A DNA stretch of 33,073 nucleotides from Eubacteriales bacterium (GTDB lineage Bacteria; Bacillota; Clostridia; Saccharofermentanales; UBA5734). The notes beneath the pieces are model-generated. The model was not told the origin of the DNA and made no database searches. It worked only from the letters and a program-made list of their open reading frames with translations. Of the stretch, positions 26,240 to 30,716 are shown piece after piece; positions within the stretch are counted from its first letter, which is position 1, and each line of letters opens with the position of its first letter. The stretch lies in assembly GCA_028684955.1 (NCBI GenBank), contig JAQUEY010000012.1, forward strand, positions 1-33,073, written 5' to 3'. Made by a program: the position numbers and the translations under genes.

Positions 26240-27868
26240 TCAGGCGTTCATGAAGAGCTGGATGTCGTCATCTACGGTGCCGATACCGGCGATACCGAAA
26301 TTCTCAACCAGGACCTTGGCAACATTGGGCGAGAGGAAGGCCGGAAGGGTCGGTCCGAGGTGGATTTTCTTGACGCCGAGGAAGAGCAGGGCGAGCAGGA
26401 CGATGACAGCTTTCTGTTCGTACCAGGCGATGTTGTAGGCAATCGGCAGCTCATTGACATCATCGAGGCCAAAGACTTCCTTGAGTTTCAAGGCGATGAC
26501 TGCCAGCGAATAGGAGTCGTTGCACTGGCCAGCGTCGAGGACGCGCGGGATGCCACCAATGTCGCCCAGCGGCAGCTTGTTGTAGCGGTATTTGGCACAA
26601 CCAGCAGTCAGGATGACCGTATCCTTGGGTAGGGCATTGGCAAAATCGGTGTAGTATTCACGCGATTTCATGCGGCCATCACAGCCCGCCATGACGAAGA
26701 ATTTCTTGATCGCACCTGTCTTGACCGCATCGATGACTTTGTCAGCCAAAGCCATGACTTGGGCATGTGCAAAACCACCGACGATCTTGCCGGTCTCGAT
26801 TTCAGTCGGGGCTGGCAGCTTTTTGGCCATTTCGATGATGGCGGAGAAGTCCTTTTTACCATTGGCATCAGGAACGATGTGGGTGCAGCCCGGGAAGCCA
26901 GCGGCGCCGGTGGTGAAAATGCGCTGGCGGATTTCTTCGGATTTCGGCGGCACGATGCAGTTGGTGGTGAAGAGGATCGGGCCATTGAAGGTCTTGAACT
27001 CTTCGAGCTGTTTCCACCAGGCGTTGCCATAGTTGCCGACAAAGTTTTCGTATTTCTTGAAAGCCGGATAATAGTTGGCTGGCAGCATTTCGCTGTGGGT
27101 GTAGACGTCGACGCCTGTGCCCTGGGTCTGCTCGAGCAACTGCTCCATGTCCTTGAGGTCATGGCCGGAGATCAGGATGGCGGGATTGCCTCTGACACCG
27201 ATGTTGACTTCGGTGATTTCCGGGTTGCCGTATTTGCTGGTGTTGGCTTCATCGAGCAGGGCCATGGCAGCGACGCCAAATTCACCGGTTTTCAAGGTTA
27301 GGGCGACCAGCTGGTCAGCTGTCAGGCTGTCATCCAGTGTGGACGCCAACGCCTCATAGATAAAGGCGTAAATGGCTTGGTTTTCCTTGCCCAGATTGTA
27401 AGCATGCTCGGTGTAGGCAGCCATGCCCTTGAGTCCGTAGATGACCAGCTCGCGCAGTGAACGGACATCCTCATTCTCCGTGGCCAGGACGCCGACTTTG
27501 GTAGCCTTGGCCAGCATGTCTTCTCTGGCGCCAACTTTGAAAGTGGCAGCATCGCCCCAGCTGGCAGATACTTTGGCAGCCAGCTCATCGCGCAGCCCCA
27601 AGACCTTCTTGATCTGATTTTCAATCGCAGCATCATCGAAATTGGCATTGGTGATGGTCATGAACAGGCTGTTGATCACTTCGTAATTGACAGCTGGAAT
27701 GGTTTCGGTAGCGATTTTGCCTTTGGTGACGACTTCGGCCACACCTTTGCAGGCGTAGATCAGAAGGTCTTCCAGATTGGCGACGGTCTCGTTCTTGCCA
27801 CAGACACCCATGACGGTGCATCCGGTGTTTTTGGCTGCTTCCTGACATTGGTAGCAGAACATACTCAT
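26240..27868 (-). CDS. hcp: Hybrid-cluster protein (prismane; hydroxylamine reductase), class I
   Basis: 542 aa, ATG at 27868 after AGAGAGGT. The N-terminus [17 protein letters not shown] carries C5, C8 and C17, followed by C23, spacing 2-8-5, the class I arrangement of anaerobes that binds a [4Fe-4S] proximal cluster. The C-terminal two thirds hold the hybrid 4Fe-2S-2O cluster domain, with [32 protein letters not shown] and [11 protein letters not shown] typical of the family. Cytosolic. It reduces hydroxylamine to ammonia in vitro and is thought to act in vivo on nitric oxide or in protein S-nitrosylation. It lies 62 bp downstream of the four-domain iron-sulfur fusion gene on the same strand, with one promoter in front of both, so they form an operon. 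No hcr reductase is seen here. Confidence 0.96.
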
Positions 27869-27930: not shown

Positions 27931-29646
27931 TTAACTGCGGAACAGATGGAGCAGGGGCTCGTCGACTTCGACCGGCAAGATCCCATGATCGTGCAGGATC
28001 GTGTAGAAATCACGCATCTTGGCAACGAGGGGTTCGCCAGACTGGTATTCAAAATGGACACGGTTGATGAATCGTTCGACAGGGTCGGGCGCTGTGCGCA
28101 TCATGTCATAGGAGAGGGCTGCTGCCTCGTGCGGATGCTCTTTGACCCAGCTGATGGCAGCCTGGAGCTCTTCGGTGAACACAGCCATGACCTCCGGATA
28201 CTTCTCATAAAGCTCCTCTTTTACAATCACCCCGGCATTCGGGAATTTGCCAAAACCGGGGTTCGCCTGGTTGAACAATCGACTGTAGCTGATTTCACTG
28301 TAAGCCATTTTGTTCTTTTCGGCAACCGCGATTGTAAAAGATGCTTCAGGTTCGCGCAGCAGGACATGCTGAGCCTGGCCTTTTAAAAACGCCAGCATGA
28401 TTTCCTTTGGCCGGCCGAAAGGTTCGCCGTAAACGAAATTGAAGTCGGCCATGTCAAGGCCTTCGGATTCAAGCAGGTAGCGGGTGATCTTGGCCGGAGG
28501 GGCATCCTCGAACAATGGCATGTGGATGGTCTGACCCTTGAGGTCCTTTAAAGAACTGGCATTCGCCTGGCGCGTCAGCAGGACAAAATTGTCCCAGACA
28601 AAGACGGCAGGCATCCGGACGCCCATGGCTTTGAATTTGGTTGCCGTGATGACCGCCGAAAAACTGATGTCAGCCCGTTTGTTGACGATCCAGCCCAGAT
28701 GCTTCTCGGTTTCGTCCCAGACTTTGAGTTCCTTGATGCGGATTTTCTCGCGCAGCCGCTTGGACTGGAGCAGCCGCATGATGATCGGATAACCGACTGG
28801 TGTGGCCGACTGGATGGTCAAGGCAGGCAGGTCGCCTTCGCTGGAAGATGCGGCATCGGCCTCGGTTTTGGTGAAGCGAATCCTGGCCTCCCCCAAGTCA
28901 TCGGACAAGACCTGGTGGGAAAATCCCATCGATGACAACATGTTGATCAGAGGTTCGGGTTTGAAGCGCTGGACAAGAATGAAACTGCCCTGGAGTGGGA
29001 CGGAGTAGGCCACTTTGATGATTTCATCGAACGGATCTGTGGTCATCTGGCGGACGTCAAGCACCTGTTCTTCGCCCTCGGCCAGTTGGCCAGACACCCT
29101 TGTTGCCGTCTCCTGGCCGTATTTCTGCAATTCTTTCTGCAAAGCAGCAGCTTCGGCAACCGTCAGCTTGTCTTCGACTGGTTCCAACTGGGCGGATGTG
29201 GATTGGACACAGTTGGGGAAAGCCTGGATCAGCGCCTGTTCGAGCCCCAGTTTTTTGTTGATGAAATGGAGGATTTCACAAATCGACACCCCGGTCATCT
29301 TGGCTGCGTGCTCAAAGGTGGCATGCCGGGCCAGGGAGTTCCAAAGCACCGGATTTTGCATGGTCTTGAATTTGCCGGACAGTTCCAGTAAATCAGTTTT
29401 CAGAAATGGGTAGCGCTCCAGAGTTGCGCGGACGTTGTCGGTTGAAAGGACGACCTGGTTGGCCGCTGCTTCAATGGCCTGGGTCGGACAGGCGGCTAGT
29501 GCTTGCTCAGCCAGGGTGTTTTCTTCGTCTGTTACAGGCTGGTGGATGACGACTGCTTTACGGTTCTTGATTTCAAATGTTGCAGGTGCCACGCGCTGGC
29601 AAGCCATGCAACCAATGCACTTTTCGTTGACAGAGAATGTTTTCAT
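27931..29646 (-). CDS. Ferredoxin-DUF1858-DUF2249-NMT1/THI5-like fusion protein
   Basis: 571 aa, ATG at 29646. Residues 1-60 are a single-cluster ferredoxin domain (C10, C13, C16, then C53 before P). Residues about 70-135 (LLELSGKFKTM ... ISTyle helix MTGVSICEILHFINKKLG) fit DUF1858, the small helical domain found at the N-terminus of ScdA/Ric-type iron-sulfur repair proteins. Residues about 193-260 (VLDVRQMTTDPFDEIIKV, then FILVQRFKPEPL) fit DUF2249. Residues about 275-560 resemble the NMT1/THI5-SsuA/TauA type periplasmic-binding fold (RADISFSAVITATKFKAMGV; LKDLKGQTIHMPLFEDAPP). No signal peptide or lipobox is present, so it is cytosolic despite a solute-binding-like domain. It is first in an operon with hcp. 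Function not established; a sensor or electron-donor role in nitrosative stress is inference. Confidence 0.8.
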   Translation of the reverse strand: MKTFSVNEKCIGCMACQRVAPATFEIKNRKAVVIHQPVTDEENTLAEQALAACPTQAIEAAANQVVLSTDNVRATLERYPFLKTDLLELSGKFKTMQNPVLWNSLARHATFEHAAKMTGVSICEILHFINKKLGLEQALIQAFPNCVQSTSAQLEPVEDKLTVAEAAALQKELQKYGQETATRVSGQLAEGEEQVLDVRQMTTDPFDEIIKVAYSVPLQGSFILVQRFKPEPLINMLSSMGFSHQVLSDDLGEARIRFTKTEADAASSSEGDLPALTIQSATPVGYPIIMRLLQSKRLREKIRIKELKVWDETEKHLGWIVNKRADISFSAVITATKFKAMGVRMPAVFVWDNFVLLTRQANASSLKDLKGQTIHMPLFEDAPPAKITRYLLESEGLDMADFNFVYGEPFGRPKEIMLAFLKGQAQHVLLREPEASFTIAVAEKNKMAYSEISYSRLFNQANPGFGKFPNAGVIVKEELYEKYPEVMAVFTEELQAAISWVKEHPHEAAALSYDMMRTAPDPVERFINRVHFEYQSGEPLVAKMRDFYTILHDHGILPVEVDEPLLHLFRS

Positions 29647-29696: not shown

Positions 29697-29725
29697 ATTA
29701 TAGACGTATGCCGGTTATTTGTAAG
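29697..29725 (-). promoter_or_regulatory. Promoter of the fusion-hcp operon
   Basis: Minus strand: CTTACA (29725-29720), 17-bp spacer, perfect TATAAT (29702-29697), about 50 bp upstream of the start codon. I saw no clear FNR- or HcpR-like inverted repeat next to it. Confidence 0.65.
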
Positions 29726-29800
29726 TATCCATGGCTACGATATGTGATTCTGAGTGTCATTTCCCTGGTTCGTCTGGGGTACTTGAGGTCTGACAGGAAC

Positions 29801-29828
29801 AAAAAGAAAAGCCGGCAACCAGGCCGGC
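29801..29828 (-). terminator. Rho-independent terminator after the flavin reductase gene
   Basis: Minus strand: GCCGGC (29828-29823), 6-nt loop, GCCGGC (29816-29811), then TTTTCTTTTT. It separates the flavin reductase unit from the fusion-hcp operon. Confidence 0.8.
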
Positions 29829-29910
29829 CCCTCTTTTCAAAACGCTTGCTTCCGGGGGGAACAACCGGCTGCAAGAGGATTATCAGATGCTTGGATGGAG
29901 TTAGCTGCAG

Positions 29911-30402
29911 TTACAGCAAGTTGGCGGCTGCGAAATCGATGCTGCCATCTGGGGCTACGATGGATTCCTCGGCATGGACATGGAGGATCTTGCCGACAAA
30001 CATTTCGTGGGACCCCGTCCGGATGGAATCGACAATCTCACATTCGATGTTGACCGGACAGTCCGAGAGCAACGGCGCGTTGATGGTCACCGCTTCACTC
30101 AAGGCTGCCCCGATCACGGTGAGCTTATCTTCATCCCGTTTACTTGTGTGGCCCAGATAATCGAAGAGCCCGGCATTGTCTTTGCCTGGTAAATTGACAA
30201 CAAAGCTACCGGATTCTTTGATCATCTGGTAGGAATACCGGGAGGGCACGATACCCACCATAATCATCGGAGGGTCGAAGCTGCAATTGCAGCAATAAGC
30301 AACAGCCAGGGCATTGTTTTCGCCCTGGTTGTTGCGGCAGGAGACAAGGACTTTGGGAGCAGGCTGGAGGCAGGATTTGAAATTGGCCAATTTCTTACTC
30401 AT
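29911..30402 (-). CDS. Flavin reductase-like (FMN-binding split-barrel) protein
   Basis: 163 aa from the ATG at 30402 (GAGGAA six bases upstream); a four-codon longer non-ATG start is possible. It shows the split-barrel pattern of the flavin reductase/FlaRed family: ALAVAYCCNCSFDPPMIMVGIVP (spread over about 32-54), then a RYSYQMIKESGSFVVNLP segment and the C-terminal GKILHVHAEESI strand. It binds FMN and probably reduces or carries flavin in the cytosol. The double Cys in AYCCNC is notable. It lies 29 bp downstream of the DUF5320 gene in one transcription unit. Substrate unknown. Confidence 0.88.
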   Translation of the reverse strand: MSKKLANFKSCLQPAPKVLVSCRNNQGENNALAVAYCCNCSFDPPMIMVGIVPSRYSYQMIKESGSFVVNLPGKDNAGLFDYLGHTSKRDEDKLTVIGAALSEAVTINAPLLSDCPVNIECEIVDSIRTGSHEMFVGKILHVHAEESIVAPDGSIDFAAANLL

Positions 30403-30431: not shown

Positions 30432-30716
30432 TCAGGCTTGTTCCTCATACTTCTTGAGCTGGGCTTTCATGTTCTCCAGCTCTTGTTCCAACAGCTTGAC
30501 TTGATCTTGCAGCACGGTTTTCCCTGCGTTGGGATCAAAATCGGCGGGTGCATACGGATAGGGTGCTCTCATCCGGCGAAATCCACGCCCGCGACCATAG
30601 CCGCAGCCGTAGCCATATCCGTAAAATGGCTGTGTGGCAGATCCGCCACACGGGCCAAAACCACGTCCTGTCCGGGCACCCATGCCCATCGGTCCACTTC
30701 CATCTCTTGCTGGCAT
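30432..30716 (-). CDS. DUF5320 domain-containing small protein
   Basis: 94 aa, ATG at 30716 after AAAGGAG. The N-terminus MPARDGSGPMGMGARTGRGF is the DUF5320 hallmark, followed by a Gly/Tyr/Arg-rich low-complexity part with two Cys (C23, and one in GYGCGYG). The C-terminal half (about 66-94, KTVLQDQVKLLEQELENM...) is a coiled coil. From memory, DUF5320 genes are often near Mrp/NBP35 ATPases and NifB/NifX-like (dinitrogenase cofactor) proteins in anaerobes, which suggests metal-cluster handling; no function is proven. Here its partner is a flavin reductase. Confidence 0.85.
   Translation of the reverse strand: MPARDGSGPMGMGARTGRGFGPCGGSATQPFYGYGYGCGYGRGRGFRRMRAPYPYAPADFDPNAGKTVLQDQVKLLEQELENMKAQLKKYEEQA

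Follow-up and report, generated by a model that had tools for sequence, protein, structure and literature searches.

A gene on the minus strand at positions 27931..29646 of the window, by which we mean the whole 33,073-nucleotide stretch of DNA that was analysed, encodes a 571-aa protein that, judged from its sequence, is a fusion of a [4Fe-4S] ferredoxin, a DrpB-like DUF1858-DUF2249 core and a cytosolic solute-binding-protein (SBP) domain, and its best-supported assignment is to the nitrosative-stress proteins of the HcpR regulon. By its domains, this unusual cytoplasmic protein unites an electron carrier with a segment of a known control protein of nitrate respiration and a domain that binds small molecules. 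An earlier note on this DNA had known of no description of such a system; this stands for the complete ferredoxin-DrpB-SBP fusion, which was not found in the literature searched, and falls for its parts, as frdX-hcp operons (PMC1274295, PMC12915319) and the DrpB core (PMC6282519) are known.

Domain architecture of the fusion protein

The ORF of 571 codons was compared with its ortholog from a second species (G001; 89% identical). The dN/dS ratio was 0.067 (dN 0.064, dS 0.95) and, of the 292 differences, 212 lay at third positions vs 53 and 27 at the other two, thus indicating that the gene is real and under selection. The DUF1858 and SBP domains displayed the lowest dN within the fusion, and the GC content and GC3 of the gene were similar to those of its neighbors. 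All four domains were detected by Pfam in the window protein and, together with the fold returned by Foldseek, these matches bear out the order ferredoxin-DUF1858-DUF2249-NMT1-like that the earlier note had proposed. The ferredoxin domain (Fer4_13, residues 6-59, positions 29470..29631, minus strand; Pfam E 3e-16) gave PDB profile matches to mono-cluster ferredoxins and was found to have its four cluster ligands (C10, C13, C16, and C53). No export signal was found in the protein and, since the ferredoxin stands at the very N terminus, the fusion is considered cytosolic and devoid of a signal peptide, as the note had also held.

The central part of the protein consists of a DUF1858 domain of the FKxxxNP type without CxxC (residues 71-125, positions 29272..29436, minus strand; Pfam E 4e-10) and a DUF2249 domain (residues 195-260, positions 28867..29064, minus strand; Pfam E 4.5e-6), the latter scoring slightly below the Pfam cut-off in the window protein (26.8 vs 29.5 bits) and above it in several homologs, so that the domain search suggested in the note came out in its favor. 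A first DUF2249 copy, which is degenerate in homologs, was mostly lost from the window protein according to the family alignment; homolog P0006 has two DUF2249 domains, and reading of the same alignment revealed a degenerate first copy in P0004, P0005, P0011, P0012, and P0013. The core was homologous to Thermus thermophilus DrpB (P0006, E 4e-20; window protein, E 2e-9), which by Pfam consists of DUF1858 and DUF2249 repeats and whose gene lies beside nar genes (T. thermophilus JL-18 plasmid copy, L158). DrpB is the described example of a DUF1858-DUF2249-DUF2249 core; it is a Thermus nitrate-respiration protein regarded as a regulator and not as a redox protein, with its mechanism only proposed, and nitrate respiration is deregulated in DrpA/DrpB mutants (PMC6282519). 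DUF2249 proteins are likewise induced in haloarchaea during denitrification (PMC11218638). The fusion and DrpB share the order of DUF1858 before DUF2249, a cytosolic location, core homology, a tie to anaerobic nitrogen-oxide metabolism, and a DUF1858 domain lacking CxxC, the latter motif being missing from all family members in the alignment. In contrast, DrpB is a 273-aa protein with neither ferredoxin nor SBP, it has DUF2249 repeats where the window protein has essentially one DUF2249, and its gene overlaps drpA beside nar genes, whereas no nar genes or drpA were found beside the fusion.

The C-terminal part (about residues 273-560, positions 27967..28830, minus strand) was confirmed to be of the type-2 periplasmic-binding-protein (NMT1/SsuA-like) fold, with an NMT1 match above the Pfam cut-off at residues 356-508 (E 8.8e-6) and best Foldseek matches to SsuA, a thiamin SBP, PqqT, and the cytosolic enzyme Thi5. 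The mean pLDDT of the AlphaFold model was 76, with the SBP part fair to good and the signature loop at residues 311-327 below 50; hence, no pocket geometry is claimed. The signature, K-[VI]-W-[DE]-E-T-E-K-H (residues 308-316, positions 28699..28725, minus strand), was near-invariant in 10 homologs. In the alignment of ten sequences more than 60 columns were invariant, mostly in the SBP part, including K308, W310, E312-H316, A325-S330, W351-F354, G411-P413, L430-A435, and P469-G472. The nearest relatives of the fusion SBP outside the family were ABC-transporter lipoproteins, from which the fusion SBPs were split with full support in the tree. SsuA/NMT1-type lipoproteins (L102-L110, L121) share with the fusion the SBP fold, a related W-[DN] loop, and the APP and PNAG motifs; however, they are exported and encoded with permease and ATPase genes, while the fusion is cytosolic and had no such transporter genes adjacent to it. 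An exported SBP was rejected, as the fusion has no signal. The plasmid matches to the full-length protein proved to be ordinary ABC SBPs, and the sole viral-contig match (L022) was a phage tape-measure-like ORF, the string KVWDETEK being common by chance. Among the transporter SBPs, the nearest relative of the fusion SBP domain belongs to an ABC-transporter cluster conserved in Clostridia (L115-L121), which includes a BadF/BcrA-DUF2229-HGD-D activase (1293 aa in L115), two small cupins, the SBP, a permease, an ATPase, and a Crp/Fnr regulator.

Operon structure and predicted HcpR2-type control

The gene for hybrid-cluster protein, hcp (positions 26240..27868, minus strand; NF003658 842.7 bits, cut-off 367), lies 62 bp downstream of the fusion, and no terminator was found in this gap, which upholds the operon put forward earlier. 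The operon is preceded by a predicted promoter, CTTACA-17-TATAAT (positions 29697..29725, minus strand), that is kept in G001. This site had been called a clear promoter; it is present, but promoter-like sites in the window were no commoner than chance (2 found vs 2.2 expected), and what went unnoticed was an HcpR2-type box at 29738-29725, whose company adds weight to the promoter. The box, a predicted operator of sequence GTAGCCATGGATAC (positions 29725..29738, minus strand), agrees at 8/10 positions with the HcpR2 site GTAACnnnnGTTAC of Rodionov et al. (PMC1274295) and was also kept upstream of the fusion in G001. It lies 22 bp before the TATAAT (29702-29697) and is centered at -41.5 of the predicted start, assuming a transcript start 7 bp past the -10 element. 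Position -41.5 is that of class II activators at Crp/Fnr promoters. No FNR, delta-proteobacterial HcpR, or CRP box of at least 8/10 was found upstream of the window fusion.

The composite of box, 22-bp spacer, and TATAAT occurred once in the 33-kb window, at the fusion, and in 0 of 20 Markov controls. In three other genomes the fusion was located away from hcp, yet an HcpR2-type composite was found 5′ of it: (i) in G684, with a 9/10 box and a spacer of 21; (ii) in G751, with a 10/10 box, a spacer of 22, and GATAAT; and (iii) in G920, with a 10/10 box followed after 23 bp by TAAAAT, as read from the sequence. The separate hcp genes of these genomes had 10/10 boxes and a divergent Crp/Fnr gene. 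When 350-bp stretches were simulated, a composite at the observed score arose in 1/4000 for the window and in 0/4000 for each of G684, G751, and G920. Across 104 ORF upstream regions of these loci, composites of at least 8/10 were detected in seven (the fusions of G000, G001, and G684, three hcp genes, and one gene in L087), a count that does not include the G751 and G920 fusions, probably due to ORF starts called upstream of their boxes, which were listed directly. A 10/10 HcpR2-type box was also kept at the fusion remnant of G719. Overall, these sequence comparisons argue strongly for co-regulation of the fusion and hcp. Next to the window box no HcpR2 gene could be recognized, the regulator candidates in the window genome being at 29-34% identity; use of the box by HcpR2, and its action as an activator, would be consistent with the sequence and position of the box.

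Upstream of the promoter, a GC-rich hairpin followed by TTTTCTTTTT (positions 29811..29829, minus strand; the same hairpin is listed on the other strand) is the likely terminator of a flavin reductase-like gene (positions 29911..30402, minus strand; PF01613 E 1.7e-32), a neighbor whose position is conserved in the genus. Since the hairpin and its T-run end this upstream gene, the fusion and hcp are suggested to form an operon of their own. A DUF5320 gene with a MPARDGSGPMGMGARTGRG start (30432-30716, minus strand) adjoins the flavin reductase gene and is apparently frameshifted in G002.

Distribution and genomic context of the family

Single-protein searches detected no comparable protein in 399 genomes of the phylum, while 280 of these have hcp. 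A scan of 84,980 species genomes yielded homologs in a Clostridia MAG (the G001 copy), Candidatus Sabulitectum, a Peptostreptococcaceae MAG, Neomarinimicrobiota, an unplaced bacterium, and BMS3Abin04, and profile searches added G684, G751, G809, and G920. The family thus has 11 members including the window protein (one partial) across several phyla, eight with the ferredoxin domain and three without. The ferredoxin-bearing members formed one clade (support 97/99) with the ferredoxin-less ones outside, which fits a single gain of the domain as judged from the tree. An hcp gene was present in 7 of 8 genomes with a ferredoxin-bearing fusion vs 0 of 3 with a ferredoxin-less one (Fisher 0.024, ignoring relatedness), presence and absence counts of hcp and fusion being affected by MAG incompleteness. 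The window fusion grouped with those of G920 and G751, of another group, and this placement, together with the patchy presence of the gene, suggests that it has spread horizontally. It has also been lost: the fusion is a pseudogene in G003 (L005) and absent in G002 (L127), with the orthologous hcp kept in both, and in G719 (L137) an internal deletion has left about the last 80 codons in a gene neighborhood like that of G751. By sequence, the decay or loss in G003, G002, and G719 is independent. The persistence of hcp in G002 and G003 indicates that Hcp does not need the fusion. Furthermore, the conservation of the remaining parts in the ferredoxin-less homologs argues that the basic function of the family is not electron transfer.

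The fusion adjoined hcp only in the genus of the window (G000 and G001, 2 of 11 members) and stood alone in G684, G751, and G920. The earlier note had named a fusion occurring mostly away from hcp as grounds for giving up its proposal, and such was the outcome of the neighborhood survey; nonetheless, the functional link to hcp is retained despite rare adjacency, since the HcpR2-type box apparently co-regulates both genes. A connection to NO metabolism, also proposed there, likewise drew its support from this box and from an NO reductase cluster rather than from adjacency to hcp. The cluster is found in G809, of another phylum (L114:412-5172), where genes for an Rrf2 regulator, a NorB with an N-terminal cytochrome-c-like domain, and the fusion follow one another in one direction; the single-chain architecture of this NorB points to a quinol-type NO reductase. 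The palindrome AAATACTAC-N6-GTAGTATTT precedes norB in G809 and a related one precedes rrf2, so that TACTAC-N6-GTAG before both genes is a candidate NO-responsive Rrf2 operator. An Rrf2 site common to the Sabulitectum fusion and its Rrf2-hcp operon was not obvious by eye. No hcp was found in G809, although its fusion bears the ferredoxin. In the Peptostreptococcaceae MAG a hemerythrin-PAS gene lies 12 bp upstream of the fusion. A second hcp of the window's genus stands beside a divergent Crp/Fnr gene in G004 (L130:1492-3968) and G002 (L132), and in G004 it is preceded by a gene for a 252-aa two-cluster ferredoxin, in a classical-looking frdX-hcp unit.

Proposed role and alternatives

The account that we favor, held with somewhat less than even confidence, is that the fusion belongs to the HcpR regulon and acts in nitrosative stress, its ferredoxin reducing an Hcp-type partner in a transfer gated by a ligand of the SBP domain; as such, it would probably be a ligand-gated redox partner. 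This account builds on the architecture, the family, selection, the fold class, the common box and its position, and the genomic links to hcp and NO reductase; beyond these, we infer the use of the box by HcpR2 and its activator role, the electron transfer to Hcp, its gating by a ligand, and what kind of ligand this would be. An HcpR2-class Crp/Fnr regulator bound at the -41.5 box would activate the fusion-hcp operon under NO-type stress, the ferredoxin domain would carry one [4Fe-4S] cluster in the cytoplasm, and its electrons would pass to an NO-detoxifying partner, in most genomes Hcp. Docking and transmission may be the task of the DrpB-like DUF1858-DUF2249 core, and the transfer may be gated according to whether the SBP-like domain has bound its ligand, a specific, small and charged molecule of the cytosol. 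Standing against this account are the genomes with hcp and no fusion, the G809 fusion for which no hcp was found, the ferredoxin-less homologs, the description of DrpB as a regulator, and the 8/10 score of the window box. Since hcp outlasts loss of the fusion, and the G809 fusion was found without hcp, any partnership of the fusion with Hcp would be facultative.

Almost as likely in our analysis as ligand-gated electron transfer, and a real though lesser possibility, is a sensor or regulator of the NO or nitrate response, in which the DrpB-like core would, as proposed for Thermus DrpB, relay a signal through protein contact to a transcription regulator. In such a sensor the SBP domain would detect a metabolic ligand or one related to nitrogen oxides, and NO or redox state would be sensed by the [4Fe-4S] cluster. 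The homology to DrpB in both P0006 and the window protein, the deregulated nitrate respiration of DrpA/DrpB mutants (PMC6282519), the retention of the DrpB-like and SBP parts in ferredoxin-less members, and the low dN of DUF1858 and SBP between the two species all speak for such a sensor; however, the fusion has no DNA-binding or output domain, the mechanism of DrpB is itself a proposal, and control by stress regulators in operons with effector enzymes (hcp, norB) suits an effector at least equally. The match to Thi5 beside transport SBPs in Foldseek, and a signature that is unusually charged and invariant (KVW[DE]ETEKH, R412, R431, E432, and E434), might instead indicate an NO-stress-induced cytosolic enzyme of periplasmic-binding-protein fold, comparable to Thi5 or MqnA, that would draw on its built-in ferredoxin for electrons when acting on a small substrate. 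We consider this unlikely: by Pfam and NCBIfam the domain is nearest to SsuA/NMT1 proteins, ABC-transporter lipoproteins are its closest kin beyond the family, and neither a bound cofactor nor a pattern of catalytic residues was recognized. That the fusion is an accessory ligand-binding protein with no NO role, transcribed with hcp by accident, would agree with its patchy distribution, its repeated loss (G002, G003, and G719), and an hcp adjacency limited to one genus, but appears very improbable given that the HcpR2-type composite recurs in four lineages, that a fifth retains a perfect box at its gene remnant, that the fusion is clustered with an NO reductase gene in another phylum, and that purifying selection is strong.

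The redox reading was also compared with the known partners of Hcp. Hcr, the NADH oxidoreductase of Hcp, has FAD and a [2Fe-2S] cluster. The fusion may resemble it in a possible role of reducing Hcp, but Pfam and NCBIfam scans detected neither an FAD nor a [2Fe-2S] domain of Hcr type, and with no flavin domain the fusion was rejected as an Hcr analogue by domain. The suggestion that it stands in for a missing Hcr is weak, since hcp is kept in G002 and G003 and the two-cluster ferredoxin gene adjoining the second hcp of relatives means that alternative candidate donors are available in the genus. The fusion also resembles FrdX, an iron-sulfur protein whose gene shares an operon with hcp, controlled from a Crp/Fnr-type site; frdX-hcp operons of HcpR regulons have been described (PMC545781, PMC1274295). 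As a precedent for the favored role, HcpR targets frdX-hcp and cells become NO-sensitive when frdX is knocked down, with the role of FrdX still called unclear in a 2026 C. difficile paper (PMC12915319). Like FrdX, the fusion has a ferredoxin-type iron-sulfur domain (Fer4_13 with four ligand cysteines), and in the window it has both the hcp operon and the predicted HcpR site, the other lineages having the site and not the operon. The genus encodes an FrdX-like protein next to its second hcp, but this is a two-cluster ferredoxin of 252 aa that has no DUF1858, DUF2249, or SBP; the named FrdX of Desulfovibrio and Clostridioides was compared by description. We file the fusion as one that would act like an Hcp partner of the FrdX kind on a DrpB-like core, claiming membership in neither family.

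Rather doubtful, in our estimate, is the furthest-reaching interpretation, that the fusion represents a novel class of soluble redox proteins under ligand control, in which a cytoplasmic binding-protein domain controls, via the DrpB-like core, the flow of ferredoxin electrons to Hcp or NorB. If this is true, the fusion would be a component of HcpR regulons over several phyla and would provide a molecular role for DUF1858 and DUF2249. These two domains keep reappearing in NO and nitrate biology with no mechanism assigned to them, and they are joined here under an apparent hcp control site. The fusion would be a new, testable part of NO survival in anaerobes, with bearing on the electron supply of Hcp in those without Hcr, and as a single purifiable soluble protein it lends itself to direct tests of electron transfer, ligand binding, and NO sensing.

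DUF1858 was also observed on Hcp proteins themselves. Hcp proteins with a C-terminal CxxC-type DUF1858 were found in G374 (L159:637-2469), G661 (L160), and G478 (L163), with a TIGR03980 score of 83 bits in G374. TIGR03980, the Hcp-associated redox disulfide domain, corresponds to the same Pfam domain, DUF1858, as that of the fusion, but the Hcp-fused domains have GMHCLGCP (CxxC), whereas the window DUF1858 has no cysteine at that place and gave no TIGR03980 match in the NCBIfam scan; its membership in TIGR03980 was therefore rejected. By their sequences, the Hcp-DUF1858 fusions of G374, G661, and G478 are an independent link between DUF1858 and Hcp.
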